Origin: a virus
DNA: 64,000 nucleotides
Reading direction: 5' to 3' (one strand)
IMG/VR virus record: IMGVR_UViG_3300049001_000044
Coordinates: 279,230 to 343,229 of that record
Shown: one piece after another, positions 31,323 through 47,007 of the stretch
How positions within the stretch are numbered: the first letter of the stretch is position 1
Layout: each line of letters starts with the position of its first letter
Notes under the pieces: model-generated
The model's input: the letters and a program-made list of their open reading frames with translations, nothing else
Told to the model about the DNA's origin: nothing
Databases searched by the model: none
Position numbers and translations under genes: made by a program

Positions 31323-32150
31323 ATGCAAGCAAAATATGTTGCTCTGGGTTCTTACACTCAGGCGAACCTAATCTCTGACCTTGCTGCCATTCTTTGTGGC
31401 GCGCAAGTTGCAGACCTCTCAGCAACTTGCGACAAGGCAAACACCACGATCGTAAGCACTGTTGCCCCTGGCTGGACTCTGGTAGATGCCAACGCATCTA
31501 ACTTAGGTAAAGTCATCTCTGCCCCAGATATGAATGGCAATCCGAAGTATGTGTACATCTACGCATCAGGCACTTCGCAGATTGCTATCAGAGTGTATGA
31601 GACTTGGAACAGTACCACCCACACTGGTACTAACCCAAGTGGCGCATACGTCTTGAGCAATGGTACGAGCTTCATGGTCTTTGGTACCCCGCAAACAGCA
31701 TACATCTCCGGTGGTGCTGACGGTTTTGGTGTGCTCGAAGTGTCTCGTGATGTCGCATACCTGCAAAACAACACTACCTACCCCGCTACCGTTGCTGGCG
31801 GAGCATACGGTTTTAGTAGCCCGACGGCCATGTCAATGCCTAGGGGCAAGAATATGACAGCTGCCGGTGACACCCTACCGTACCCTGTTCAATCCGCAAC
31901 GATCACGGCAAGATCCAGCAGTTCGATTTTGGCTGGAACCACTGCACGGCAAGACGCCAACGGTGTTCAGTACATTGAAGTACGTCCTATTTGGATCGCT
32001 CTATCCGACAACACGATCATCGGCCGCCTCTACGATATCGCAGAGATCACTCGTGGTGGCTACACTGTGTTCGACACGTTCAGCGACGGTGTTGACACGT
32101 GGATGGTTCTCCCAGGCTATAGTGGTTTGATGGCTCTCAAGGTAAAGTAA
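31323..32150 (+). CDS. Tail adhesin-like paralogue 1 of 3
   Basis: 275 residues, beta-rich and Thr/Ser/Gly-rich. Shared blocks with the next two genes: KYV..., DLS..CDK at about 35, TVAPGWT, SAPD-x-NG, ETWNSTTHTGTN, and a C-terminal IxGRxYDIxE...DTFSDG-T-M. The three tandem copies differ most in the middle. Probably a component of a receptor-binding tail structure; no known family recognised. Confidence 0.75.
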   Translation: MQAKYVALGSYTQANLISDLAAILCGAQVADLSATCDKANTTIVSTVAPGWTLVDANASNLGKVISAPDMNGNPKYVYIYASGTSQIAIRVYETWNSTTHTGTNPSGAYVLSNGTSFMVFGTPQTAYISGGADGFGVLEVSRDVAYLQNNTTYPATVAGGAYGFSSPTAMSMPRGKNMTAAGDTLPYPVQSATITARSSSSILAGTTARQDANGVQYIEVRPIWIALSDNTIIGRLYDIAEITRGGYTVFDTFSDGVDTWMVLPGYSGLMALKVK

Positions 32151-32164
32151 GGAAAGGAATTCTC

Positions 32165-33061
32165 ATGTTCGCAAAATACGTAACCACTTCTTCGCCTACT
32201 CAGGCAAATGTGATCGCTGATATCGCCGCTCTTTTGGCGGGCGCAGCAATTACTGACTTGTCCTCTTCTTGCGACAAGTCTAACTCAACCCTCTTGAGCA
32301 CTGTTGCCCCAGGTTGGACCATTACTGACAACAATGCTGGCAGCTCAGGATACATCCTTTCAGCGCCAGACCTGGCTGGCAACACCAAGTACGTCAAGCT
32401 ATTTGCTTCTAATGCAACGTACTTGGATATTCAGGCGTATGAAACCTGGAATTCCACCTCGCACACTGGTACTAATCCAACCACCGCACTTGGTGCAGTG
32501 TCGACCTCTCCAGGCGTGACAGTAAATGTTGTCAATTACTTTTTCATTTTTGCAACCGCGAGATCATTCATTGTTATGGGTGGCGGCTCTAATCCAGCAG
32601 GCGGTGGCGGTATTGGTGCATTTGAATTCACGAGAGAAGCAGCTTATCTCCAAGGAACCACCTACCCAGCAGTATGCGTCGGTATGTTGGCAGGTCTTAC
32701 CAATAGTAACAAAAACATGAACATTTCACGTACTAAGAATCTCACTGCCGCAGGAGATACTGTACCAACGACTGCTCTCTCCGCAACAATTGCCGCTCGC
32801 AATGTCGCCGCTGGGGGCATTACCTCGCCAACCTCCTACCTCATAGATGCGAATGGCACATACTACAATGAAATTCGCCCTATTTGGCTAGCTACTTCTG
32901 GCGCGGGGGCGGCAATCTATGGCAAGTGCATTGATGTGTTCGAGACGACTAACTTAAGCGCGGTCGGTAACCCTCTTGACACTCTGTCAGATGGCACCGG
33001 TACTTACATGATCTTGGTGCAGACCACTGGTGTTGGGACTTTGATCGCTAAGGTAGCATAA
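32165..33061 (+). CDS. Tail adhesin-like paralogue 2 of 3
   Basis: 298 residues with the same blocks as copy 1 (DLSSSCDKSNST, STVAPGWTI, SAPDLAGN, ETWNSTSHTGTN, YGKCIDVFE, DTLSDGTGTYM). A Gly-rich insertion (GGGSNPAGGGGIGAF) in the middle distinguishes it. A GGAAAGGAA Shine-Dalgarno precedes the ATG. Confidence 0.75.
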   Translation: MFAKYVTTSSPTQANVIADIAALLAGAAITDLSSSCDKSNSTLLSTVAPGWTITDNNAGSSGYILSAPDLAGNTKYVKLFASNATYLDIQAYETWNSTSHTGTNPTTALGAVSTSPGVTVNVVNYFFIFATARSFIVMGGGSNPAGGGGIGAFEFTREAAYLQGTTYPAVCVGMLAGLTNSNKNMNISRTKNLTAAGDTVPTTALSATIAARNVAAGGITSPTSYLIDANGTYYNEIRPIWLATSGAGAAIYGKCIDVFETTNLSAVGNPLDTLSDGTGTYMILVQTTGVGTLIAKVA

Positions 33062-33071
33062 GGAGAAACAC

Positions 33072-33986
33072 ATGCTGGTAAAATACGTAACTAATGCGTC
33101 TGTGACGACCATAAACATTATTAACGATGTGGCTTTGCTCTGCACCGGCGGAAGCATTTCTGACTTGTCTACAGGCTGCGATAAAGTGTACACGACAATC
33201 TTGGCTAAGATTGTTAACCCTGGTTGGACTCTAGTTGACAACGCCGCTCCAAATACCGGCGTTGTCATTTCATCACCAGACGTGGATGGCAACATCAAGT
33301 ATGTGAGGCTATCTCTGGTGGGCGCAAGTAATAATGTAAGCTTTGACTTGTTCGAATCATGGAACGCTACGACTCACACTGGTACTAATCAATCTTCCTA
33401 CCCTGCAGCTGTAACAGCCACCGGCGGGTCGAAGCAAACTTTTTATCTTTACGTCACCCCAAGAACAATCTACTTTGCTAAACCTGCAACTATCTCTAAT
33501 GGTATCGTGACTCACAATGGTGGTGGAACATTTGAGGTCTCTAGGGATGCCCTCTATCTAAAGGGTACAAACTACCCCGCGTTTTGCACGGGAGCCGACC
33601 AGGGGCTAATACCATATGGAAGCGGCAACAGTTATTCAATGGTGTTCCCAAGAATTAAAAATCAGTCTGGTGTTGGTGATGTTACGGGCACAAGCGCGCT
33701 TGGCATGACTGGTACAATATGCGCCAAATACTACGGTGCCGGGGGCACGGTTGGCTCGCCAGGAAGGCCGAATAGAACCGCTACTGATGCCACATACTAT
33801 GACTTCCGTGACATGTGGGTACTTTGTAGCCTTTCAGGAAGCAATGGAACTATCCTAGGCAAGATGTATGATGTCAAAGAAATTGCGTATGGCGCTGCAA
33901 ATACGGGTGACACTTTCAGTGATGGTACAGATACTTACATGGCATTCTTGACTAACTATGGCTGCTTTGCATTGAAGGTGGCATAA
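33072..33986 (+). CDS. Tail adhesin-like paralogue 3 of 3
   Basis: 304 residues, the most diverged of the three. Blocks retained: DLSTGCDKVYTT, NPGWTLVDN, SSPDVDGN, ESWNATTHTGTN, LGKMYDVKE, DTFSDGTDTYM. AAGGAG lies 6 bases before the ATG. Its stop overlaps the next ATG (TAATG). Confidence 0.75.
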   Translation: MLVKYVTNASVTTINIINDVALLCTGGSISDLSTGCDKVYTTILAKIVNPGWTLVDNAAPNTGVVISSPDVDGNIKYVRLSLVGASNNVSFDLFESWNATTHTGTNQSSYPAAVTATGGSKQTFYLYVTPRTIYFAKPATISNGIVTHNGGGTFEVSRDALYLKGTNYPAFCTGADQGLIPYGSGNSYSMVFPRIKNQSGVGDVTGTSALGMTGTICAKYYGAGGTVGSPGRPNRTATDATYYDFRDMWVLCSLSGSNGTILGKMYDVKEIAYGAANTGDTFSDGTDTYMAFLTNYGCFALKVA

Positions 33987-34370: not shown

Positions 34371-34394
34371 AAAGGGGACCTTAAGGTCCCCTTT
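34371..34394. terminator. Bidirectional terminator between convergent tail blocks
   Basis: A perfect 10-bp stem AAAGGGGACC/GGTCCCCTTT with a TTAA loop and T-rich flank on the plus side. It separates the plus-strand block (ending 34327) from the minus-strand gene ending at 34418. Confidence 0.9.
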
Positions 34395-34417: not shown

Positions 34418-34834
34418 TTAGTCAAGGAAGATCACGCGTGCAGTGCCTGCCTGAGCAGCTGAGAACTGCAGTTCAACCGTATTTTCATCAATGATTCTGA
34501 TGAGGTCGGGGAGGATGACAGCTTTGTTCTCATCGAAGGCCTGGATGATCACATTCTCAGAATCGAGATTGTGTTCAATGGTCCAGACAGTTTCAGGAGA
34601 AGCAACCGCGAGTACGAACTTACGCACACTAGACAGGCCGCCAGCACCACCTAGGTTGGTACCAGTCAGCACACCATTCACCATAGCCAGAACTTGGCCT
34701 TCTGTCATGGTGACGCCATCGAACTGTCGAGCACCAGGACCACGACGAACAATGATCGACTCTTGAGGAACGTCTACATCCAGGTAACCACGCTTAGGAA
34801 GTTCCCGTTGGATGAAGTCTTCAAACGCGCTCAT
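34418..34834 (-). CDS. Virion protein (tail-fibre-associated)
   Basis: 138 residues. The C-terminal half VWTIEHNLDSENVIIQAFDE ... NTVELQFSAAQAGTARV is the short beta domain (W-I-HNL, F-D, NTV, AG-A-V) repeated in many phage tail and fibre proteins. The N-terminal part with FEDFIQRELPKRGYLD may attach to the adjacent fibre-like protein. Overlaps its upstream partner by one base. Confidence 0.75.
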   Translation of the reverse strand: MSAFEDFIQRELPKRGYLDVDVPQESIIVRRGPGARQFDGVTMTEGQVLAMVNGVLTGTNLGGAGGLSSVRKFVLAVASPETVWTIEHNLDSENVIIQAFDENKAVILPDLIRIIDENTVELQFSAAQAGTARVIFLD

Positions 34835-36495
34835 TATGCGGCCTCCGTAATATCAACCATCAAAGTACCAGTCGTGTTGGACTGTGCGTATGCAGAGTCA
34901 GTGAGGAAGAGATACCCACCGTTAGGGTCATACTGACCTTGCGCGTTCACAATGGTGAAGCCCTGGAAGTGGTCAACAGTATCCTTGAACAGAGTCAGGT
35001 TGTTCGCAGTACCAGAGTACTTTGCGGTTACCTTGTCGATGTTGCCGATAAGAGTGCCGATTGCGTGGTATTGCTCGAACGCTGCGAAGGTGATAGTGCG
35101 AGTTGCGAAACCACCAACAGTGTAACTTGCTCCAGCCGTGATCGTATTACCAATGACGCTTGCTTGGTTGGTCATCACCAAGTTGCTGAAGGTCTGTGCG
35201 CCTTTTGCATCGCCATCGACAATGCGCAGGGTACGCTGCCAGTTGTTACCAGACTGGGTCCATGCACCCTGCCAAGTACCCGAAGATGCGGTGAGCGAAG
35301 GAGCCGAAGACAGGGTTTCAGTAGGCGTGATGACGACGACGTAGTCAACACCAGTTGGCGAAGACAGCAGACGTGTTGGGTTACCAGTGATCGAGATCGA
35401 AGCGGTAGGAGCTGCGTCTGCGATAACGACCGCGCTAGATGCAGTGGAGACTGCGCCATTGCTGGTCTTGGTAGCCGTGATGGTGTAGTTATTCGAACCC
35501 GTTACGTAGGTACCAGACACGCGGGTAACGGTCTTCGACGCTGCGTAAGTAGATGGGTTCGCAACCGACAGGTTAGCAGAAGTCGTGTATGCCACAGTAT
35601 CTGCGTTGGTGATGGTAGCAGTGACGGTAGCTGATTCAGTACCCTTCAGAGCTGTTTGGCCAGCAGGATAAGTGATCGTACGTGCGCCAATCGTTGGGTA
35701 GGTTTGGTTCAGCGTGACGGTGTTGGTAGAGACGAACGTGTTACCAAAGGTACCAAGTGCATTCCTTCCGTGTGCCGAAACAGTCTGTGCGCCAGCACCC
35801 GAACCAACAGTGAAGGTACCACTGAAGGACTTGTAACCAGTGCCAAAGGAGTCGTCGCCGCCAAGGGTGAGCGAAGACAGACTACCAGCTGCGCCGCCAG
35901 CAATAATTTCTACATAGGTCGCAGCATTTTCAATACGACCGGAAATTTGTACCACGTCGCCCGACTTAACTTCAGTCTGAGAACCTGGTAGAGCGCCAAT
36001 CAGCAGGGTGTCCATCTGTGGGCCTGCTGCTGCGCGATGAACGACGCAAGTCGCAACACCGCCAGTCGAAGAGGTTGCGGTGACAGTGACGTCAGCAGTT
36101 ACGTTAGTGAGGTCAACGTAGCCAGTGAAGAAGCGTTTGTCACTTGCATCCTCAACCAGCGCCACGGTTGCTGGCATGCCTGGCAGGGGTGGGTTGGTAT
36201 CAACAGTGATCGTTGGGGAATAGAATTGCCCACCACCCTCAGCGATTAGAGTAACACGAACGTTGTTCGTGTCAGTCGTACCATCAGTGATGACCTTGTT
36301 TGAAGGAACGGTGTTAGGAACATACTGCTTTGCACCTACGTTACCAGTGGAAGTAGGTGCGATGTTCGTGAAGAAGACGCCACCGCCTGCACCCTGCGTA
36401 AGAGCAGAGACAAGGCGGTCAACGTACTGCTTCGTTACGGCGTCCATGTTCTGCGTTGGATCGTCCGAGAGTGATGCGTGTTGATAAATTTTCAT
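34834..36495 (-). CDS. Tail fibre-type protein with repeated beta modules
   Basis: 553 residues. The start contains DAVTKQYVDRLVSAL, the N-terminal signature of many tail-fibre and collar proteins. The rest is Thr/Ser/Ala/Gly-rich with several Ig-like modules (for example IGARTITYPAGQTALKGTES, ASISITGNPTRLLSSPTGVD). It would be a structural, perhaps host-contacting, part of the tail. A late promoter lies 31 bases upstream. Confidence 0.8.
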   Translation of the reverse strand: MKIYQHASLSDDPTQNMDAVTKQYVDRLVSALTQGAGGGVFFTNIAPTSTGNVGAKQYVPNTVPSNKVITDGTTDTNNVRVTLIAEGGGQFYSPTITVDTNPPLPGMPATVALVEDASDKRFFTGYVDLTNVTADVTVTATSSTGGVATCVVHRAAAGPQMDTLLIGALPGSQTEVKSGDVVQISGRIENAATYVEIIAGGAAGSLSSLTLGGDDSFGTGYKSFSGTFTVGSGAGAQTVSAHGRNALGTFGNTFVSTNTVTLNQTYPTIGARTITYPAGQTALKGTESATVTATITNADTVAYTTSANLSVANPSTYAASKTVTRVSGTYVTGSNNYTITATKTSNGAVSTASSAVVIADAAPTASISITGNPTRLLSSPTGVDYVVVITPTETLSSAPSLTASSGTWQGAWTQSGNNWQRTLRIVDGDAKGAQTFSNLVMTNQASVIGNTITAGASYTVGGFATRTITFAAFEQYHAIGTLIGNIDKVTAKYSGTANNLTLFKDTVDHFQGFTIVNAQGQYDPNGGYLFLTDSAYAQSNTTGTLMVDITEAA

Positions 36496-36534: not shown

Positions 36535-38025
36535 TCAGAATACCTTAACCTGGTATTTGCTTGCAAATCGCTCACCATCTTCTACGGTGTTTACAAGAGG
36601 TTCGCCTTTGATGTTCAGCGAAGTGTTCAGCAGAACAGGGCAGCCGGTCTTCTCATACCACGCCTCTAGCACAGCATTGAAGAAGGGCGACTCATCGTGC
36701 GTAACGGTCTGTAAACGACCAGTACCATCAGCATGGGAGACTGCTGGTAGAGTTGTAGGAACCTTTACGACGCAGACCGCCTGCATGTATGGCACCTTGT
36801 CCAACTTTCCAGGCATGATGAAGTGATCGTGCTTGTATCTGTCCAATACAGCAGGAGCAAATGGTCGGAACTTCTGTCGCTTCTTGATTTCATTGACGCG
36901 ATCCTTCATCAAGTTACTGCGAGGGTCACCAAGTAGAGAGCGATTGCCAAGAGCTCTTGGCCCAAACTCAGCTCTACCAGTCATCACACCACAAACGCCC
37001 GTCGTAAGCAGCTCTTTCACCACGTCTGATGGGTCGATGTCAGAGTCGATGTTCGTACCAAGCATCGCGTTCTTCCAATTCAGTTGAGTGCGCAGATTAT
37101 TCGCGATCGCGCCTAAGGAGTTACCAGCATCGCCAGGATTAGGCATGATCCAGAAGTTGTCGAACTTATCGCCCAGTTTGGTTACTACTTCAGCGTTCGC
37201 AAGACAGTTCAAAGCAACGCCACCTGAGTAAACGATGTTCCTGCAGTTTGTCATGTCCAATGCCATCTCAATAACGCGCGAAATCTTGTGTGTTATGAGA
37301 GTCTGCGCCGCGAGAGCCAAGTCATATCTGCCTTGTTCGCCTTTCGCTTGACAAGCAAACTGGCTGCCTCTCATACCTCGATGGAGATTGGTTGTTTGGT
37401 GAAGATGACCATCGAAGAATTCCTCCTGCATTTCTGCTGCGATGAGGTCTGCACTTGAAGGATTGCCGTATGCGGCCATACCCATCAAGATGTACTCTTC
37501 TTCATTGGGCTTCAGACCTACCAAGTCGGTTACGGCACTGTAGAACAGACCGAGTGAGTGAGGATACTTCAGTGACCACACCCGCTTTAAGTTCGAACCT
37601 TTCCCATGCCAAATGGATGCAGTGGTTAGCTCGCCGATTGCGTCGATGACAACGCACACTGCCTCATCAAAACCTGAAGTGTAGAATCCACCGGCTGCAT
37701 GGGACTGGTGGTGATCGGAGTATTCGATCGGCGCAACAATTCCAAACTGCTTCATGTACTCTTTCGGAAAAGCCTGCATGACCTTGTCGAACTGCCCAGC
37801 CTTTATGAATCTCGCTTTTCTTCCCCATGGGTTCTCAAACCAAACGACCTTGCCTGGGGAACCAAACTGCAAAGCGTCTTGAATCAATTCGTTGTTGAGG
37901 TGTTCGTCGTTCTTAATCCTACTGTACCTTTCGGCATGGCCAGCAAAGAGGATGTCTTTCGTGACCGAATCTACGACCGAAATCGAAGCATCATGGTTAT
38001 CGGCGTTGACGCCCCAGATAATCAT
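36535..38025 (-). CDS. Carbamoyltransferase, NodU/CmcH family
   Basis: 496 residues, slightly shorter than typical NodU proteins (550-600). Features: a start resembling the Kae1-like fold (IWGVNADNHDASISVV), YSDHHQSHAAGGFYTSGF, VVIDAIGE, NEEEYILMGMAAYG, NIVYSGGVALNC, GRAEFGPRALGNRSLLGDPR, RQKFRPFAPAVL, GCPVLLNTSLNIKGEPLV. These are the HxxxH metal site and the carbamoyl-AMP domains. It transfers a carbamoyl group to a hydroxyl on a sugar or hypermodified nucleobase; the acceptor here is unknown. Divergent from the lipoprotein gene. Confidence 0.93.
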   Translation of the reverse strand: MIIWGVNADNHDASISVVDSVTKDILFAGHAERYSRIKNDEHLNNELIQDALQFGSPGKVVWFENPWGRKARFIKAGQFDKVMQAFPKEYMKQFGIVAPIEYSDHHQSHAAGGFYTSGFDEAVCVVIDAIGELTTASIWHGKGSNLKRVWSLKYPHSLGLFYSAVTDLVGLKPNEEEYILMGMAAYGNPSSADLIAAEMQEEFFDGHLHQTTNLHRGMRGSQFACQAKGEQGRYDLALAAQTLITHKISRVIEMALDMTNCRNIVYSGGVALNCLANAEVVTKLGDKFDNFWIMPNPGDAGNSLGAIANNLRTQLNWKNAMLGTNIDSDIDPSDVVKELLTTGVCGVMTGRAEFGPRALGNRSLLGDPRSNLMKDRVNEIKKRQKFRPFAPAVLDRYKHDHFIMPGKLDKVPYMQAVCVVKVPTTLPAVSHADGTGRLQTVTHDESPFFNAVLEAWYEKTGCPVLLNTSLNIKGEPLVNTVEDGERFASKYQVKVF

Positions 38026-38101
38026 TGTCTGATCTCCATTATATAAAGTGCGATGAAGTACTTATTCAAATTGATTTGTAACAAGTTTTACACTTAACCT
38101 G

Positions 38102-38130
38102 TTTACAATCAGCGCGAACTTTAGTACAAT
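38102..38130 (+). promoter_or_regulatory. Sigma70-type promoter for the lipoprotein gene
   Basis: TTTACA at 38102-38107, a 17-base spacer and TACAAT at 38125-38130, each one mismatch from the bacterial consensus. It lies 32 bases before the ATG at 38163. This is the clearest host-type promoter in the window. Confidence 0.8.
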
Positions 38131-38162
38131 AAATCCATACTAACTCTCAGCGAGGTTTAAAA

Positions 38163-39029
38163 ATGAAGAAAATCAATGTGGCGGCAACTGTCCTGGTATC
38201 GATGATCCTCTCGGCCTGTGGCGGTGGAGGCGGTGGTAGTTCCACCCAAACCCCACCAGTCGCACAAGTCCCGGTCTCCCTGCCTATCCTCAACATTAAC
38301 GACCAACTCACCAAGTCCGCAAATGCTGACACCCTGGGCTTCGAGCCTGCGAACATGTCCCACACCTCGGGCGAACTGCAAACCAACACTGGGTTCTGGG
38401 GAGTGAAGTCGGCTTCCGCCTACTACGAGAACGTGGTGGGGACGATCGACCCGAATACGAACATCGCCAACGTCACCTTCAACTGGGACATCACGTCCTC
38501 GCAAACCCCTGGCGTTGTGAACTTCTCCAACATCACCTACGGCCTGCACCCTGGCTCCGCCTTCTCCACCACGAAGAAGCTCCCTGTGCGAGTGACGAGC
38601 ATGGGAGACCAGGTGGTAAATGCGGATGTGAAGACGAGCTGCGAGACCACGTGCTCCTACCAAACGATGCTGGACGTCTTCGTGATGAGTTCGAATAGCA
38701 CGAGCAACGCGGACATCGGAACCGAGATCGTCATTCTGACGGATCGCAACATCGGTCCTTCTGATCTGACGGGTGAAACAGCAACGATCGGCGGCGTCAC
38801 CTACAAGGTCGTGCACAACGGCTTCATCACCAACTGGAACGCCATCCAATACTTCGCGCCCATCGGTACCCCGATTAACTCGATGAAGATTAATGTCAAG
38901 GACTTCGTCAACGACGCTTTGCAACGTGGCTGGATTAAGAGCACCGACTACCTGGTCTCCATCGAACTGGGCACGGAAGTAATCCAGGGTAAGGGCAAGA
39001 CCGAGATCAAGAATCTGCACTTCAACTAA
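38163..39029 (+). CDS. Secreted lipoprotein with GH12-like glycoside hydrolase domain
   Basis: 288 residues. Signal peptide with lipobox LSAC (16-19) followed by six Gly, so Cys19 would be lipidated. The rest follows the GH12 (endoglucanase/xyloglucanase) jelly-roll: FWGVKSASAYYENV, MLDVFVMSSNST, GTEIVILTDR with candidate nucleophile Glu188, NWNAIQYFAP, INVKDFVNDALQRGWI, and SIELGTEVIQGKGKT with candidate acid/base Glu272. The Trp usual after the nucleophile is replaced. C-ending codons dominate, unlike its neighbours. It has its own sigma70 promoter and terminator, suggesting a transferred moron. It may degrade plant glucans, or alter the cell surface and exclude other phages. Confidence 0.8.
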   Translation: MKKINVAATVLVSMILSACGGGGGGSSTQTPPVAQVPVSLPILNINDQLTKSANADTLGFEPANMSHTSGELQTNTGFWGVKSASAYYENVVGTIDPNTNIANVTFNWDITSSQTPGVVNFSNITYGLHPGSAFSTTKKLPVRVTSMGDQVVNADVKTSCETTCSYQTMLDVFVMSSNSTSNADIGTEIVILTDRNIGPSDLTGETATIGGVTYKVVHNGFITNWNAIQYFAPIGTPINSMKINVKDFVNDALQRGWIKSTDYLVSIELGTEVIQGKGKTEIKNLHFN

Positions 39030-39050
39030 ATCCTTTCCCTGCAAACAACG

Positions 39051-39075
39051 AAGGGTAGCGTAGGCTACCCTTTTT
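39051..39075 (+). terminator. Intrinsic terminator of the lipoprotein gene
   Basis: AAGGGTAGC/GCTACCCTT stem with a 4-base loop and TTTTT on the plus strand, 21 bases after the stop at 39029. Confidence 0.9.
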
Positions 39076-39082
39076 GACGTGC

Positions 39083-39171
39083 GGACCTCCCAGAGACCTC
39101 CTACCTACTTGATGTAGAAGTTAGTGTCGAAATAGGCTATGCATCTCTGGACCTCTCTGGTAAGCTCTAGC
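39083..39171 (-). repeat. Five-copy intergenic element, copy C
   Basis: Minus-strand reading starts GCTAGAGCTTACCAGAGA and overlaps the stop codon of the gene ending at 39167. It shares with copy D the internal ACACTAAC, a CTAC(ATCAA)GTAG hairpin and GTAGGAGGTCTCTGG. Ends pair through CCAGAGA/TCTCTGG. Confidence 0.75.
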
Positions 39172-39946
39172 GATAGTAAGAGTGATGCATGTCCTTGATT
39201 GCGTAGAAGTCATCTACTGAATCCATGCCCAAGACCTCTGCTCGATACATGATCTCTGGGAAGTTACTAGCAACCTTCATGTCCAAGTTAATGGCCTGTC
39301 CGTACTTCGTAAGCCTGGTCCCTGGTCCAAGAACATGATAGTTATCGATCCTCCGTTTTGGCGCTTCACCCTCGCGAATCTTTCGGAAGATATCGCAGAC
39401 CAGATCCATACCCCACGAGTCACCGAAGAAGATGCAATCTGACGCATTGAATTGGTTGTACTCTAATCCCATTCGATAGTTGTGCGGGAAGTAAATCGTG
39501 CGATCACCAATCCAATTGTCTCTTAATTGATCCATCACGCTGGTGTCAGGGTCAAAGACGTTATCGTACCGACATTTGAACACGACATCGTAGCGGAAGC
39601 CCATCTCAATCTCATGTGCACGCTTAAGATGGTTGGCAATCATCATCGACCAATACAAACTGCCAAAAGGAACGTATCCCATTGGCTCCTGCGCCTTGAA
39701 CAAATCTTCTTGCGTCTCAATGACGTAGGAAATTGGATTGAATTGTAACAGCTGTTCAGTCAACCAGTCCTTGTCAAGTTGTTGGTACTCGCCTATTGAA
39801 TGATCAGGAAGTTTCCAAGTGTTGTAGTCCCAAGCATGACAGAAGAAGTCAACTTGAACTCCTTCTGCATTAAAATATCTGAGGATAGATTTCCGAGCGA
39901 ACTCAATCGACCTAGGTTGCCCGGATAAACAGACTGCGATTCTCAT
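39167..39946 (-). CDS. Glycosyltransferase-like protein
   Basis: 259 residues from the ATG at 39946. The start MRIAVCLSGQPRSIEFARKS is typical of a group of viral and bacterial proteins annotated as glycosyltransferases; later FKCRYDNVFDPD and SDCIFFGDSWGMD may hold metal-binding acids. Last gene of the sugar operon, overlapping the upstream gene by 35 bases. The sugar acceptor is unknown. Confidence 0.7.
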   Translation of the reverse strand: MRIAVCLSGQPRSIEFARKSILRYFNAEGVQVDFFCHAWDYNTWKLPDHSIGEYQQLDKDWLTEQLLQFNPISYVIETQEDLFKAQEPMGYVPFGSLYWSMMIANHLKRAHEIEMGFRYDVVFKCRYDNVFDPDTSVMDQLRDNWIGDRTIYFPHNYRMGLEYNQFNASDCIFFGDSWGMDLVCDIFRKIREGEAPKRRIDNYHVLGPGTRLTKYGQAINLDMKVASNFPEIMYRAEVLGMDSVDDFYAIKDMHHSYYR

Positions 39947-40451
39947 AATTGACACACTCAGTGGATAGGGAAAGGGTTTGCAGATGGTAATAGAACTTGG
40001 CGGCGTCATCTACGCTTGGACCGCGGATTTGATTGACGGGAATGTTCTTGAGATTAGTGTGGTACTCACACGCCCTATCGAATTCCCAACTGCGAGCGAT
40101 GAACACGCATGGGTTAACACTCGTCAGCCAATGCTTCTTGTCGAAGCCACCTGTCATGTAGTAGATGAAGTTCTTTTGAAGGTCGACCTTCTTGTCAGCA
40201 TCGTACACCATCTCGATGTGCCTTACGTCGAACATCACATCAGTGTCGTACGCCATACAGATTTTGAATTCGACGTGAGTCTGAAATTCAGCTGTCTTCT
40301 TCTTGTGCGATACAGTTTCGAGGGCAAGAAACTTGTCTTCGTCAAAGTGATGGAAGAAGGTCATTGGGAATGGGAACCACTTCTGAAGCTTAGCTTGAAG
40401 TTCAGTGGTGTCCACACTCTTGGTTCCGTAAAAGCAAACTGCGTAAGTCAT
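39912..40451 (-). CDS. Hypothetical protein of the sugar operon
   Basis: 179 residues. MTYAVCFYGTKSVDTTELQ and MAYDTDVMFDVRHIEM recall the start and acidic segment of its downstream neighbour, so it may be a reduced or diverged glycosyltransferase-like protein. No catalytic motif is certain. Confidence 0.65.
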   Translation of the reverse strand: MTYAVCFYGTKSVDTTELQAKLQKWFPFPMTFFHHFDEDKFLALETVSHKKKTAEFQTHVEFKICMAYDTDVMFDVRHIEMVYDADKKVDLQKNFIYYMTGGFDKKHWLTSVNPCVFIARSWEFDRACEYHTNLKNIPVNQIRGPSVDDAAKFYYHLQTLSLSTECVNYENRSLFIRAT

Positions 40452-40458
40452 GTCAACC

Positions 40459-40551
40459 TCAGTAGATGAACGGATCGGATTTGTTCTTCTTTCGCTTGTA
40501 CTGGCGATATGCCATCTTCCAGGATTCGAGTAAGTTCTTAATGAAGGTCAT
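40459..40551 (-). CDS. Tiny basic protein
   Basis: 30 residues: MTFIKNLLESWKMAYRQY then KRKKNKSD. It overlaps the SGNH-like gene stop (ATGA) and ends 8 bases before the next ATG, consistent with coupled translation. An amphipathic basic peptide; function unknown. Confidence 0.55.
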   Translation of the reverse strand: MTFIKNLLESWKMAYRQYKRKKNKSDPFIY

Positions 40552-41390
40552 AGGATGTTTCTCATCTTGATTTGATCGTGCAGATATTTAGCCCACGCCG
40601 CATGTCCTGACTCCAATGGGTGACCACCATTTCCTGTTGGATTTTCAGGATAGGACCATTCGCAGAACCACGTTGTCTCCACATTGCTGAACAGCTGGCG
40701 CAGCGTGAAATTTTCTGGCGCGTAAATGAAGTTAGGAGCATTGAAGTTGACCAACTCAAACATCGTCTGTAGCTCTTCAGACTCGACGGCTTTCTCAACG
40801 TCATCCCTTTCGTAGTATTGCTGGATTGAAGACACGAGCGAATGGGTGAATACGTACTTGATCTTCTTCGACTCCAAGAATGTCTTCAGTGAGATGATAC
40901 TTTGCAGGTAGTTGGTAATGTTGTAGATGGGATCACCACTTACCCACTTAACGTGCTTCTTCAGGTAGTCTAGAAATTCAGGTGACAGATCAGTGGTGTT
41001 CTTTTGGATCTGTGCGACAAGATCAGGGATGAACTGTCGCCATTGCCCACGATGTCTAGTCTCAAACCGCTCGTATGCCGTCCATCCGACGATCACGAAG
41101 ATGTCTTCAGGCTTGTGTGTCTTGAGCAACTTGCCAACCGCTGAGATGGTAGTGCGAGCAATCCTTTCGTTGCTGCTTCCGCCCAGACCTTCGTTAAGTA
41201 CCTCCATGCCGAGCGAGCGAGCCAACACCGCAGGCCACGCATGATACTCCATATGAGCGTAGTGTTGAGGGGTCAACGCGCTGTAAGTGCGGCTAGTTGC
41301 AACACCAAACTTCTTTTCATCCCATCCAAATTGTTTATTGCCAAGTTCGCTACCCTCAGTTAGCGAACACCCGTTCGCGTACAAAATCAT
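40548..41390 (-). CDS. SGNH hydrolase-like protein
   Basis: 280 residues. NGCSLTEGSEL at the start (nucleophile Ser block, GDS-like), EGLGGSSNERIART (block with Gly/Asn), VIVGWTAYERFE, and HPLESGHAAWA near the C-terminus (acid-x2-His block). These fit SGNH/GDSL esterases, a family that removes or transfers acyl groups on sugars. In this operon it may acylate or deacylate a glycan. Coupled to its neighbours by ATGA. Confidence 0.75.
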   Translation of the reverse strand: MILYANGCSLTEGSELGNKQFGWDEKKFGVATSRTYSALTPQHYAHMEYHAWPAVLARSLGMEVLNEGLGGSSNERIARTTISAVGKLLKTHKPEDIFVIVGWTAYERFETRHRGQWRQFIPDLVAQIQKNTTDLSPEFLDYLKKHVKWVSGDPIYNITNYLQSIISLKTFLESKKIKYVFTHSLVSSIQQYYERDDVEKAVESEELQTMFELVNFNAPNFIYAPENFTLRQLFSNVETTWFCEWSYPENPTGNGGHPLESGHAAWAKYLHDQIKMRNIL

Positions 41391-41980
41391 GTTACGTCCT
41401 TCATGGTGATAAGAGTGTGCGGGTCAACTTTAACCACTGTCGCCTTCGAAGCACGTGCCGCAGCTATCCCACTTGGTGAATCTTCGAAGATAACAGTATC
41501 ATCGTAATTCACCGAAAGCTTTTCCATTACTTTTTGAAAGATTTCTGGATCAGGCTTAGGCTTGCTAACCTCATCTCCTGCAATGACTAAATCGAGGTAT
41601 GGCTTTACGCCGATCTTTTCCAAGATCAGATCAACATACAGACGACGAGAGTTACTTGCGACAGCAATGTAGAAGGGATTTGCTGAGAAATGTTCCATCA
41701 CCCTAATCGCTTCTTCGTTGCTAGGCAGGTTGGACATCAGCGACATCGTCGCCTCTTGCTTTAAGAGATCAATCTTGCGGACGTCTGCTGCTTTGAGTTG
41801 GTACTTAGCGCGCAAAACTTCCAACTTGTCAATGGTGCGAACGCCGTCGCTTGCATCAAGAAGAGGAAGTTTGGATGCTTCCTCACCAATGACTTCAAGT
41901 ACGGCTTGACGGAATGCGGAGGTGTGAATGGATGAGGTGTCGACTAACACCCCATCGAGATCAAATATTGCAAGTTTCAT
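41387..41980 (-). CDS. HAD-superfamily phosphatase
   Basis: 197 residues, standard for the beta-phosphoglucomutase subgroup. FDLDGVLVDT with Asp7 and Asp9, VASNSRR (motif II), SKPKPDPEIF (motif III Lys) and FEDSPSGIAAA (motif IV). A helical cap follows the first motif. It probably dephosphorylates a sugar phosphate for the neighbouring nucleotidyltransferase pathway. Confidence 0.88.
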   Translation of the reverse strand: MKLAIFDLDGVLVDTSSIHTSAFRQAVLEVIGEEASKLPLLDASDGVRTIDKLEVLRAKYQLKAADVRKIDLLKQEATMSLMSNLPSNEEAIRVMEHFSANPFYIAVASNSRRLYVDLILEKIGVKPYLDLVIAGDEVSKPKPDPEIFQKVMEKLSVNYDDTVIFEDSPSGIAAARASKATVVKVDPHTLITMKDVT

Positions 41981-42413
41981 GTGTGACGATGGACACGTAG
42001 TCCGTGCAAATGCCGTAGATGCTCTTATCTATTGCGTTTACGTCGCCAATCAGTTCAGGCATAACTGCGATCGAGTGCCTGCTCAGTTGTTTCCCAGGGT
42101 AGGTCCAAATATAACCTGACGACGTCAATGTGAAGTCGTCTTCTTGGTGCCAGAAGTAATGCTTGGTCTTACAAATACGAAGAGTGTTTAGGGCAGCGAA
42201 GTTCTTCGCATGGCACCATAACCCTGGCGTTTTTAGGAATGAAGGATTGACATGGTAGGTGGGCGCGTCGTGTCCTAACCAGATACCGCCTTGGTGGAAC
42301 CATACATCAATCTCCACGTCATATCCCGCTGCGAGCGCCTCCTCAATGTAGGAGGGCTCATTCTCGCGGTTAGACGGGCCGTTCCTATTACCTCGGTGCG
42401 CGATCAGTCTCAT
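41961..42413 (-). CDS. Short glycerophosphodiester phosphodiesterase-like protein
   Basis: 150 residues, about 60 percent of a full GDPD barrel. IAHRGNRNGPSNRENEPS (the His-Arg-Gly and Glu-Asn motifs), AAGYDVEIDVWFHQGGIWLGHD (Glu-x-Asp metal site and second His). The C-terminal strands of the TIM barrel appear reduced. In phage sugar clusters such proteins may cleave a phosphodiester in a glycan precursor. Overlaps genes on both sides by 20-26 bases. Confidence 0.8.
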   Translation of the reverse strand: MRLIAHRGNRNGPSNRENEPSYIEEALAAGYDVEIDVWFHQGGIWLGHDAPTYHVNPSFLKTPGLWCHAKNFAALNTLRICKTKHYFWHQEDDFTLTSSGYIWTYPGKQLSRHSIAVMPELIGDVNAIDKSIYGICTDYVSIVTHETCNI

Positions 42414-43110
42414 GCTTGATGTATGCCTCTAAATCTTCAGGAGTTCCCACACCATGCATTTCGTCAACTGGCATGGTAATTACTTTGTGACCCAGCGCTA
42501 CGTTTTGAGTGTAGACTGGAGCAACGTAGAATTCGTTCTTGTAGCGGATGTTCTTCTTAATCATTAACTCCGCTGCATCAACGAACTGACTACCCTTGTA
42601 CCAAAAGTAGAGACCTGCTGTGGCATGAGTGCTGACGGGTACCTTCTCAACGACTTCAGTTACGAACCCATGCTTATCCAGCTTCGCGAAGCTCCACTTT
42701 GGATCGGTATCTTCGAACGTCATGATCACACCATCAGCGTGTGTGTAGAGAGGAGTGACACTTGCTTCGTTGAACTTGATGATGTTGTCAGAGTTCATGA
42801 TCGCCAATGGCTCATCATTGTTAATGAGGTGCTTTGCTTGAAGCACGGTACATGCGGCTCCCTCAGTCACGCCATCAATGACGACCACATCACATCCTTC
42901 GTATCGTTCTTGAAGGAAGTTCTTCACGTCGTATTTCTCAACGTGCTCTTTCTGGACGATAAAGATCAGATGTCTAATTGCAAGAGGGAACGAATCTACG
43001 ACATGCTCAATCATCGTCTTACCAAGGAACTTGATGAGGGGCTTTGGGTCAGTGTATCCCGCCGCACTGAAGCGGGACCCTAAACCCGCCATTGGAATGA
43101 GAAGGTTCAT
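42388..43110 (-). CDS. Sugar-phosphate nucleotidyltransferase
   Basis: 240 residues from the ATG at 43110; a GTG at 43119 is an alternative. MNLLIPMAGLGSRFSAAGY is the G-x-G-T/S-R nucleotide loop, followed by DPKPLIKFLGKTMIEHV, IMNSDNI (sugar-nucleotide/Mg site) and VVEKVPVS. It activates a sugar phosphate to an NDP-sugar that the operon's glycosyltransferases could use. Confidence 0.9.
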   Translation of the reverse strand: MNLLIPMAGLGSRFSAAGYTDPKPLIKFLGKTMIEHVVDSFPLAIRHLIFIVQKEHVEKYDVKNFLQERYEGCDVVVIDGVTEGAACTVLQAKHLINNDEPLAIMNSDNIIKFNEASVTPLYTHADGVIMTFEDTDPKWSFAKLDKHGFVTEVVEKVPVSTHATAGLYFWYKGSQFVDAAELMIKKNIRYKNEFYVAPVYTQNVALGHKVITMPVDEMHGVGTPEDLEAYIKHETDRAPR

Positions 43111-43111
43111 C

Positions 43112-43303
43112 TTAATCACCCAACTTCAGTTCGATGCTCGCGCCCATCTTCAGAAGTTCCTCTAGAGATACCTCCATAACAGAGGCGTACTCCTCACCAC
43201 GAGTGCGAACGTAGAGGTAGTATTTCCCATCTCGTTCGTTAAGCGAGACATAGGCGGGGAGGGTTTGACCGGTTACTTCAGTGTATGCGTAGATGTTGTT
43301 CAT
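43112..43303 (-). CDS. Small hypothetical protein
   Basis: 63 residues, beta-rich in its first half (YVSLNERDGKYYLYVRTRG), then a helix. It precedes the nucleotidyltransferase directly. No family recognised. Confidence 0.65.
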   Translation of the reverse strand: MNNIYAYTEVTGQTLPAYVSLNERDGKYYLYVRTRGEEYASVMEVSLEELLKMGASIELKLGD

Positions 43304-43311
43304 TTGATTCC

Positions 43312-43581
43312 TCAGGGGTTCTTTTTAACGTATCGAATATTAGGAGGTTCATCTACCTCAACTGCGCCATCAAACATTGATGTATCAATCCAGTCAACAT
43401 CATAGTTGTTTGGGCCGGTGCTGACTCTATACTGCTCACTTGGAAGACCAGCATTTCGTGGCCCTGTCTCTACGAACACTGTCTCACCCGCGTAATCACC
43501 ATGCTCAGGTTTATCAGCGAGTCGATAGCACTTCCCAATCTGTGGTCTAAACGTGGCCTCAAATAGTTCCGCCATTTTCAT
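43312..43581 (-). CDS. Small protein with capsid-targeting-like N-terminus
   Basis: 89 residues. MKMAELFE|A resembles the ATPase start MKLQDLFE|A and the LxE|A processing site of internal head proteins. The remainder is a small beta-rich domain (GKCYRLADKP, AGETVFVETG). A packaged protein inside the sugar operon would be unexpected; resemblance may be coincidental. Overlaps the upstream gene by ATGA. Confidence 0.65.
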   Translation of the reverse strand: MKMAELFEATFRPQIGKCYRLADKPEHGDYAGETVFVETGPRNAGLPSEQYRVSTGPNNYDVDWIDTSMFDGAVEVDEPPNIRYVKKNP

Positions 43582-44501
43582 TTGTTAGCCTCGACTTCGG
43601 TTAGGACTGCATTTAAATTGCGCTTGGGCGCTTCGTAGACGGACTTGAAGAAGGATGATGCGTCAGCGGTCATGTCAGCAATGTTCATACCCAGATCTTT
43701 CTTCAGTGGAATGAGCAGGTCTGCGCTCGCCTTCAACAGGCTTTCTTCGGTTGCAAACTTCGGTTTGATCTCTTCATGGAAGTACTTCTTGAACCAATCG
43801 TAGTCAGAAATCTGTGCGATGTCGAAGTCGGCTTCGATGTTGGCCATGTAGATGCCGAGCCTAGTGCCGTAGACAGCCCACACTCCGTTCTCTACGTCAG
43901 CACCAACAGAAGCCCAAATCAGCAGGCGCTTGTAGTTGGTTGCGTAGACAGAGTTTTGAATGAGACCTGTTGCTTTCGCACCGCGATCAAGAGTCATCTT
44001 CACACCTTCACGGAAGCCTGCGCGGAAGGCTTGGAAGGGCGAGCCATTAATGCACGTGTCGGAGTAGGTGTTGTTGAGCTGGACGTAGTTGTCGTCCCAG
44101 CAGAAGTCTACTTTTTCTTCGTCACGTGTTGCGTTCTCATGAGTGCGCATGTTCAACACGAAGTCTTTGGTCCACAGCTTCAGACCACCGTTGCCGTAGT
44201 GGAGACCGTTGACGATGTTCCTTGCTCCCCAGCTCAGCGTCTTGTCATCGAGATGGGCGGGGATGTCCAACTCCAAATCGAAGAACTCGTCGTAGACTAG
44301 GTTGTCGCCGTCGACAGTGATGAACTTATCAGTACTAGATGCGTTCGCGCAGGCCTTGTGCGCGCTATCAAATCCCTTTACTCCATCAACGCGTTGAGCC
44401 CATGGACACTGATCTTGCAGCTTTGCCCAGAACTCTTCCTTTTGCGGTTCATCATAGGAGAGGTAGAAGAGATCGAAGTCTGAGATGGAATGTTTAGCCA
44501 T
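43578..44501 (-). CDS. GT-A-like glycosyltransferase domain protein
   Basis: 307 residues. Paralogous to the N-terminal half of the fusion at 24507-25856: DLFYLSYDEPQKEEFW, AQRVDGVKGFDSAH, FITVDGDN (DxD-like), WGARNIVNGLHYGNGGLKL. No methyltransferase half. The acceptor could be DNA or a virion protein; nothing in the sequence decides. Coupled to both neighbours. Confidence 0.7.
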   Translation of the reverse strand: MAKHSISDFDLFYLSYDEPQKEEFWAKLQDQCPWAQRVDGVKGFDSAHKACANASSTDKFITVDGDNLVYDEFFDLELDIPAHLDDKTLSWGARNIVNGLHYGNGGLKLWTKDFVLNMRTHENATRDEEKVDFCWDDNYVQLNNTYSDTCINGSPFQAFRAGFREGVKMTLDRGAKATGLIQNSVYATNYKRLLIWASVGADVENGVWAVYGTRLGIYMANIEADFDIAQISDYDWFKKYFHEEIKPKFATEESLLKASADLLIPLKKDLGMNIADMTADASSFFKSVYEAPKRNLNAVLTEVEANK

Positions 44502-45123
44502 TTTGGAATGATACGGATAGAGGCCCCCTCACCGCGAACACTGAGAGATCATCAACGTCTTTCAGGTTAAGGCGAATTGGATTGGGCCAGGATGGGAGGT
44601 TGTTGTAAGTGGTGATTTCGTTGAGGATATTTACGTCCAACGAGAAGGCGCACTTCAGGTACGTCATGTCACCCTCCCTCGTAAAGTACATCTTGACGGG
44701 ATTTGAGATCGTCTTCAGCTTTTCCCCATCGTAGTAAATCTCCACAACACCTTCATCCTTCAACACCTTCAGTCGAATGTCATCCCAGTCATTAGGCTTC
44801 ACCTCATAAATGCCCAACCCAATATCTACGCGATTCAGTTTGACAGTGTGCGGTTGAATCTTTTGGAAGACAAACAACTTGTCATCAGGTATGATCGACC
44901 ACGAGATTGGATTCTCTTCGCCGGTGATGAACTTCAAACCCAACTCATAATCCACTTCTAAACATTTCTCATCTTCCACCGTCACGTCACACGAGCTAAT
45001 CGACTTAATTTGCAGAGTGGTGCTGTTAAAGTGGACGTAGAATTTTGGTTCGACGGGTGCGGGTGCGGGTGTTGGCGCAAAGTCTTGCGTGCTAGACAGC
45101 ACTTGCATGAGCTGTTCGATCAT
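44494..45123 (-). CDS. Hypothetical beta-rich protein
   Basis: 209 residues with a Pro/Ala linker (PTPAPAPVEP) after a short helix and then beta-rich sequence. It might be a virion component modified by the flanking glycosyltransferases. No family recognised. Confidence 0.65.
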   Translation of the reverse strand: MIEQLMQVLSSTQDFAPTPAPAPVEPKFYVHFNSTTLQIKSISSCDVTVEDEKCLEVDYELGLKFITGEENPISWSIIPDDKLFVFQKIQPHTVKLNRVDIGLGIYEVKPNDWDDIRLKVLKDEGVVEIYYDGEKLKTISNPVKMYFTREGDMTYLKCAFSLDVNILNEITTYNNLPSWPNPIRLNLKDVDDLSVFAVRGPLSVSFQNG

Positions 45124-45977
45124 ACTCCCAGCTTCCTTTCCATTGTGTTGATCATTTTATCGGTCATGAACTCTTTCACATGATAATGAAGAGGCAGCTG
45201 TTGAGCGTAGTTACCAATCTTCAACGAGCAATCCCTATTGAAGTAGTAGGGGACAATCTTAGTCCAGTCTTCGACCATGAACTGACCTTCAGGCCAACCT
45301 TGCAGTTGCGACTTCATGTGGACGAACGTAGGCAGGTCCGATTCAGAGTAGAGGTTGTAGGATGGGTAGTCTAGAATCTTTGCCGCGATACCGAACACAA
45401 CGTCAGTTGATACGAACTTTGGTCGATGTTCTGGCTCCAAGAATTCGTAGAAGCAGCGCTCCCAGTTGTTGAAGATGAACTCACAAAGACGGAAGAACTC
45501 AAAGTTCAAATCGTTCTTCTTGAAGTAGAACATCGCGCTGTAGACATTAGGAAGGTTCGACTCGGTGAAGGTCTTACGATAATAATCGCTAGTGATAACC
45601 TCCCCACGATACGTCTTCGCCTTCGTACAGAACACGCCTTCGCTGTCAGACAGCATATCCCACCAGTGAGAGATGTCACCAGGGAAAATCATGTCCGCAT
45701 CCAACTTGATTGTCTCATCGTAAGGCGTCATGTAGATCGCCTTCCATTCATTCTCCAACTTCCACGTGCTGTTCTTTGCGTGGTCTTCCCAAGGAATTTC
45801 AACCACTTGATCGAACACTTCCAGGTACTTGGCAGGAATGTTTGTGATCTCATCCTTCGTTACACCAATCGACAGATCATTTGGTCCTGTCTGGGACAGC
45901 TTCAACGACAGTGCGCATGCGTAAGCGAGACGTTGATACGATTCGCCTTGGGCAATAGTGAAGAAACCTCTACTCAT
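45120..45977 (-). CDS. Glycosyltransferase with DxD motif
   Basis: 285 residues from the ATG at 45977, which overlaps the preceding stop as ATGA; a GTG at 45986 is the alternative. SRGFFTIAQGESYQRLAYA, TPYDETIKLDADMIFPGD (DxD metal motif), SAMFYFKKN and YHVKEFMTD follow a GT8-like layout. Same architecture as the 290-residue neighbour (SPYDETLLIDCDFLV). Probably adds a sugar to a phage component. Confidence 0.75.
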   Translation of the reverse strand: MSRGFFTIAQGESYQRLAYACALSLKLSQTGPNDLSIGVTKDEITNIPAKYLEVFDQVVEIPWEDHAKNSTWKLENEWKAIYMTPYDETIKLDADMIFPGDISHWWDMLSDSEGVFCTKAKTYRGEVITSDYYRKTFTESNLPNVYSAMFYFKKNDLNFEFFRLCEFIFNNWERCFYEFLEPEHRPKFVSTDVVFGIAAKILDYPSYNLYSESDLPTFVHMKSQLQGWPEGQFMVEDWTKIVPYYFNRDCSLKIGNYAQQLPLHYHVKEFMTDKMINTMERKLGV

Positions 45978-46138
45978 TTGTACCACTCCGGATGTTCTTC
46001 TCTCAATTTAGCGTATGCTTCCTGCTCGTGCTGTCGATATTCAACAGCACGTTCTTCCCATCCAGGACCACCTTCATATCGAATCATGGTCGAATAGAGC
46101 ATCATGATCTGGTATTCTGCTTTTTCTTTCTCCGTCAT
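45974..46138 (-). CDS. Small hypothetical protein between glycosyltransferases
   Basis: 54 residues, charged and aromatic (MTEKEKAEYQIMMLYSTM, then EGGPGWEERA). ATGA overlaps with both glycosyltransferase genes support it as real. Unknown function. Confidence 0.65.
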   Translation of the reverse strand: MTEKEKAEYQIMMLYSTMIRYEGGPGWEERAVEYRQHEQEAYAKLREEHPEWYK

Positions 46139-47007
46139 TTGAGTGCCTCCATGATTTCGTTCATGTTGTTGAGTAGGGAAAGCTTGTTCATGCAGTGTAC
46201 GTTCAAACCGTTAGTCGTCACACCTTGGTACTTCCAAGTCTCTTGACGATCCTGGTGGAAGAAGTGTAATTTTGCTGGTGAGCTAATGCCGAAGAATTGG
46301 TCGGTATCAAGTGCAGATAGGATCGTTGGATCTGGTAGAGACACAACGTAGTTCGACTCTTCGAACAGACCGTTCAGAATGTGGATCGCAATGGAGAAGG
46401 CGTAGTCATTCCTAAACAAGGCGCCCGGAAAATCGTACGTTAGCTGATAGAAGTCCCAGTTGTCTTTGACGTGCTCTACCAAATCGAATAATCTCTTTGC
46501 CTTCTCGCCCTTTCGGAAGTAGATGACAGTAGCCCAGTACATTGGGATGCCGTATGGGTTCAACCTATCTTCCGCACCTTGAAGTTTGTTGTGGAAGAGG
46601 TCAGTCGCATACTTGTTGATTTGGAATTCCTCCTCACTGCCCCATACATGGGAGAGGACGTCGTTGCAGACGAGGAAGTCGCAGTCGATTAGGAGGGTCT
46701 CATCGTATGGAGACAAGTCATAGACCGTGCTTCTGCTTTCGTTCTTGAATTGGGCTTCGAACCCATAGTATTGAGTGTCACGATATCGACGGTTGTTGAC
46801 GAACTTTTGTTCTTGTTCTTCAATCAACACCACAGAGTCGAACAGTGTGTAGACGTCATGGCGAGGATCGACGGAGCCTTTATCGCTGATCAGGCAGACG
46901 TTGGTGCCTGGCATGTTCTTGCGGATAAAGGATGCGCACATAATCGCAAGCTGGACGTAATCAATACGGGCGTTATTGACGCCGAAGATTACAACACCAC
47001 GAGACAT
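46135..47007 (-). CDS. Glycosyltransferase with DxD motif
   Basis: 290 residues. Related in layout to the protein at 45120-45977: VVIFGVNNARIDYVQLA, SPYDETLLIDCDFLVCND (DxD), VIYFRKGEKAK, LHFFHQDRQETWKYQG. Second of the two GT8-like enzymes of the operon, possibly acting sequentially. One base after the preceding stop. Confidence 0.75.
   Translation of the reverse strand: MSRGVVIFGVNNARIDYVQLAIMCASFIRKNMPGTNVCLISDKGSVDPRHDVYTLFDSVVLIEEQEQKFVNNRRYRDTQYYGFEAQFKNESRSTVYDLSPYDETLLIDCDFLVCNDVLSHVWGSEEEFQINKYATDLFHNKLQGAEDRLNPYGIPMYWATVIYFRKGEKAKRLFDLVEHVKDNWDFYQLTYDFPGALFRNDYAFSIAIHILNGLFEESNYVVSLPDPTILSALDTDQFFGISSPAKLHFFHQDRQETWKYQGVTTNGLNVHCMNKLSLLNNMNEIMEALK

Follow-up and report, generated by a model that had tools for sequence, protein, structure and literature searches.

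A virus record of the IMG/VR collection carries a stand-alone gene for a predicted lipoprotein of the GH12 family that has both of the catalytic Glu positions of that family. As to its role, we lean, with somewhat less than even confidence, towards an exported, lipid-anchored GH12 endo-beta-1,4-glucanase that would trim the beta-glucan matrix around the infected cell. The DNA analysed (the window) is the 64,000-nucleotide stretch at positions 279230-343229 of this 343,229-base record; coordinates below are those of the window unless given as record positions.

The record encodes a gp23-type (T4-type) major capsid protein (E 7e-94) and a T4-type terminase, and a search of it for a tyrosine integrase gave no match. 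Considering these features and its 343-kb size, "lytic jumbo phage" is a fair description as judged from its gene content, in agreement with the lytic phage genome of the initial annotation. The DNA polymerase is 41-91% identical to those of 31 IMG/VR contigs, and its nearest counterpart among isolated phages is that of Xanthomonas phage XacN1 (38% identity), whose host is Xanthomonas citri. The same phage has two adjoining tRNA genes (L049:15112-15264, record positions 195112-195264) with the anticodon CTA of the amber suppressor type; ARAGORN labels both of them Pyl, and TAG is still a stop in some of the phage genes. At 31323-33986 there are three consecutive + strand paralogues (275, 298 and 304 aa, with M..KYV starts) that have no PHROG match.

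The GH12 gene stands alone on the + strand, with opposite-strand genes on either side. The features of the locus are the following:

36535..38025, - strand: Nol-like carbamoyltransferase, divergent to the GH12 gene (Pfam PF16861/PF02543; phrog_1601, "moron")
38102..38130, + strand: predicted sigma70-like promoter, TTTACA-17-TACAAT (10 of 12 consensus positions)
38150..38162, + strand: ribosome-binding region (GCGAGG), a Shine-Dalgarno just 5' of the ATG, read from the sequence
38163..39029, + strand: GH12 lipoprotein gene, 288 aa (Pfam PF01670, phmmer against the PDB, and an AF2 model matched to GH12 by Foldseek)
38163..38219, + strand: predicted lipoprotein signal peptide with lipobox LSAC (Cys19), MKKINVAATVLVSMILSAC
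38724..38726, + strand: codon for Glu188, the predicted nucleophile (L-INS-i alignment with 7mkr, 2bw8 and others)
38976..38978, + strand: codon for Glu272, the predicted acid/base (GxE column, invariant in every alignment)
39051..39075, + strand: predicted intrinsic terminator, a hairpin (39051-39072) running into T5 (folding energy)
39167..40009, - strand: uncharacterised phage protein, convergent to the GH12 gene (phrog_13607, 4e-10)

Both the lipobox protein with Glu188 and Glu272 and the self-contained unit that had been described earlier are thus present: the translated frame begins MKKINVAATVLVSMILSAC-GGGGGG, and the isolated gene has its promoter-like site, Shine-Dalgarno and strong terminator. 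The leader is a signal peptide ending in a consensus lipobox of the bacterial pattern [LVI][ASTVI][GAS]C, with Gly, and no Asp, at +2; lipidation is predicted from this. It resembles lipoprotein leaders that are common across the order of genome G288, and the leaders that it matches in other genomes belong to lipoproteins and have the form LxACGGGGG. The phage encodes further small lipobox proteins at record positions 16221-16958 (L043) and 130120-130685 (L046).

The two transcription signals claimed for the unit, a near-consensus sigma70 promoter and a terminator, did not fare equally well. The 56-nt terminator stretch has a folding energy of -23.9 kcal/mol (z -4.6) and is well borne out. The promoter is plausible but weak: a site matching at least 10 of the 12 positions arises by chance in 3.5% of shuffles of the 137-base intergenic stretch, and sites of this sort are not over-represented in the surrounding 4 kb, so that we regard this one as only suggestive. 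Since the phage has a similar hairpin at 34371-34394, where another pair of genes converges, this terminator type is not peculiar to a cassette.

Membership of the GH12 family is well supported by sequence and by the modelled fold, since all of the comparisons point the same way. The protein scores 44.1 bits with Pfam PF01670 over residues 76-280 (curated cut-off 27; E 3.5e-11), its phmmer matches in the PDB are GH12 glucanases, of which the best is the Bacillus licheniformis xyloglucanase 2jen (2.2e-13), and it reaches 107 bits against a profile of the remaining GH12 sequences collected for this analysis. An AF2 model made from ten sequences (pLDDT 73, pTM 0.76; without relatives the model is useless, with pLDDT 34) shows the expected GH12 beta-sandwich (jelly-roll), and its top Foldseek matches in the PDB are all GH12, with 2jem at E 1.3e-16 and best TM values of 0.77-0.84 by target. 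NCBIfam has no match for the protein, and BFVD contains no similar viral protein at E values up to 0.001. The call of GH12, with both Glu positions, was thus right, and its recognition from raw sequence alone is notable.

When the protein is aligned with bacterial GH12s such as 7mkr and 2bw8, Glu188 lies on the nucleophile column and Glu272 on the acid/base column. The register of Glu188 comes from L-INS-i alignments of 17 and 18 sequences; in narrower alignments a two-residue gap moves it off its column, and the gapless match of GTEIVI to the GTEIMI of 7mkr favors Glu188 as the nucleophile. Since the alignment fed to AlphaFold was picked because it sets Glu188 against the catalytic Glu, the model is no independent proof of that register. 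Asp171 and Trp79 are retained as well. The Trp of the E-[IL]-M-I-W motif and an aromatic substrate platform are common in GH12 and do not strictly define it; in the phage protein the motif Trp is replaced by Leu192, the aromatic (Trp) that follows His129 by Pro130, and other aromatics are missing. The gammaproteobacterial protein L030 also lacks the motif Trp, which is thus variable within the family. Moreover, GH12-like proteins of Myxococcota and gammaproteobacteria have lost the nucleophile Glu (L021-L023) or changed it to Asp (L031, L085), so that activity is not to be taken for granted.

These losses bear on whether the protein might be a lipoprotein that retains the GH12 fold for binding or blocking, is scarcely or not at all catalytic, and serves to mask a receptor or exclude superinfecting phages. 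Receptor blocking is known from small lipoproteins of phages, T5 Llp among them (PMC9586334), the substrate-site aromatics are partly lost and GH12-like domains devoid of the nucleophile exist. Nevertheless, we judge this unlikely: retention of both Glu residues and Asp171 in so divergent a protein (its branch in our tree is very long, at 3.28 changes per column) points to selection on catalysis, and the small lipoproteins known to act in exclusion are shorter than its 288 aa. Neither Llp nor Cor appears by name among its PHROG and Pfam results, but such proteins are short and diverse. We infer the endo-beta-glucanase activity, the substrate and the role of the protein; the persistence of both Glu residues despite strong divergence suggests, at the level of the alignments, that the enzyme is active and its substrate site altered.

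The initial annotation had also noted C-ending codons unlike those of the neighbors, and a comparison with 180 ORFs of at least 150 aa from the phage agrees: the C3 of the GH12 gene (0.48) is the highest of the 180 and its GC3 (0.77) the second highest (z about 2.7). High expression was rejected as the cause of this bias because the GC3 of the major capsid gene is only 0.62. As proof of a recent transfer the bias is weakened, since another phage gene (record positions 102097-103491) has an equal GC3 and the favored codons are the phage's own preferred ones, only more strongly so. The high GC3 could also signal an assembly chimera or bacterial contamination rather than a phage gene, as could the lack of GH12 in the phage's relatives described below. 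This seems to us very improbable, given that phage genes flank the locus on both sides inside a 343-kb phage record, that the terminator is of the type found at another junction of the same phage, that the codons used are those which the phage itself prefers and that the GH12 gene is present in a single copy only.

None of the 31 polymerase relatives has GH12 above the cut-off (seven exceed 290 kb; the shorter ones, being fragmentary, carry little weight). A weak match in the related phage G683 (E 0.02) was dropped, the 393-aa protein in question having no GH12 look. Because of this absence from all 31, the simplest reading is that the gene is a private or recent gain, probably by transfer. 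Bacterial matches come from Bacillus, Paenibacillus, Pectobacterium, Brenneria, Myxococcota and gammaproteobacteria, with 24-29% identity in the longer matches, and no close relative was found; in the class of genome G009, 3 of 369 sampled genomes have a match in the GH12 region. Placement of the gene in the tree is unsure owing to long branches. Single-protein searches of phages, plasmids, viral contigs and genome contigs gave no relative, and further alignment scans of viral contigs likewise gave none, but all of these rested on a few short patterns and absence from them is not proof.

Only an actinobacterial-type alignment, in the short-pattern scans, found GH12 in phage contigs, namely in the two near-identical IMG/VR contigs L040 and L041. 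The L040 gene (5509-6513; 92 bits) has both Glu residues and follows head and tail-fibre genes, ahead of a GH26 gene; L041:2-787 is a shortened version fused to upstream tail-gene sequence. They share with our phage a GH12 with both Glu residues on a phage genome, but they are of the actinobacterial type, lie after a tail-fibre gene, have no lipobox and are about 20% identical to it. GH12 is therefore not unique to this phage, and the lipid-anchored stand-alone form differs in layout and was acquired separately. The earlier suggestion that this is an auxiliary gene of a new kind was too strong: phage-borne polysaccharide hydrolases are already known, among them GH5 and GH48 enzymes (PMC9544554), a GH5 mannanase (PMC6786970) and this second phage GH12. 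A literature match for GH12 with chronic phages proved to concern GH127.

The B. licheniformis xyloglucanase (2jen/2jem), best PDB match in both sequence and fold, shares the fold, the catalytic Glu positions and the GTEV acid/base motif with the phage protein; it differs in having EIMIW where the phage has EIVIL and several aromatics that the phage protein lacks, at about 20-29% identity. The related Bacillus GH12 genes read here have no lipobox, unlike the phage gene. L030, itself lipoprotein-like, shares the lipobox layout and a YGL[HK]P...STT..LP stretch, but it and the Pectobacterium and Brenneria enzymes are only 24-29% identical to the phage protein, and both L030 and the phage protein sit on long branches.

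Among the closest GH12s are a Bacillus xyloglucanase and the enzymes of Pectobacterium and Brenneria, which would fit an auxiliary metabolic gene, with plant xyloglucan or other beta-glucans cut outside the cell and a plant-associated host gaining sugar during a long jumbo-phage infection. The Xanthomonas citri host of the isolated phage with the most similar DNA polymerase (38% identity) and the activity of the GH5 mannanase of soil viruses (PMC6786970) are in line with this. We nevertheless consider it a minority possibility: none of the genes next to the GH12 gene was recognised as serving import or the use of sugar, lytic infection leaves the cell little time to benefit, and at 24-29% identity the substrate of the relatives is not transferable.

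The surroundings of the gene raise another possibility. A cluster of glycan-type genes (carbamoyltransferase, HAD, nucleotidyltransferase and glycosyltransferase-like proteins) extends over 36535-47007 and may modify virion or host glycans. Synteny through relatives of the carbamoyltransferase was tried and set aside, as only that gene is common to them, with PhoH or the 43578 gene in places; among the DNA-polymerase relatives there was no carbamoyltransferase match. The nearby carbamoyltransferase, nucleotidyltransferase and HAD genes and a tail gene at 34834-36495 could, together with the predicted lipid anchor and the position of the L040 GH12 after a tail-fibre gene, be taken to favor a capsule or EPS depolymerase on the infected cell, which would remove receptors or barriers and stop progeny from re-adsorbing to the dying cell or its debris. 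These neighbors are on the opposite strand, though, and may act on virion glycans, and we find this explanation quite improbable.

In the reading that we prefer, that of matrix trimming, the gene would be transcribed from its own unit by the host sigma70 RNA polymerase during infection, and the preprotein would be processed at Cys19 and then placed on the outer membrane. There the enzyme would cut a beta-glucan by a retaining GH12 mechanism (Glu188 as nucleophile, Glu272 as acid/base), the substrate perhaps being bacterial cellulose or a similar polymer of the host matrix, rather than or besides plant xyloglucan. The likely benefit would be a loosened matrix around the infected cell, from which progeny could get out instead of being trapped on the polymer. 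This role is drawn by analogy with two known systems. Erwinia phage S6 needs host cellulose for infection and carries the cellulases gp094 and gp095 (GH48 and GH5; PMC9544554); these too are phage-borne beta-1,4-glucanases, but of other families, and are not described as lipoproteins in the text consulted. BcsZ, a periplasmic GH8 cellulase, reduces cellulose output and biofilm (PMC5070118); it is likewise an envelope-located cellulase acting against a cellulose matrix, but of another family and encoded by a host gene of the cellulose operon.

A bolder version, which we hold to be possible but on the unlikely side, makes of the infected cell a platform that displays a cellulase or glucanase on its surface, where the outer-membrane GH12 would dissolve the host or plant beta-glucan matrix before lysis, as a means of release and dispersal distinct from virion depolymerases. 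Many of the known polysaccharide-cutting enzymes of phages are carried on the virion. If the account given here is true, an enzyme that the infected cell itself makes and holds on its membrane would open a biofilm by another route, from the inside, and it would tie jumbo phages to the turnover of cellulose-type polymers.
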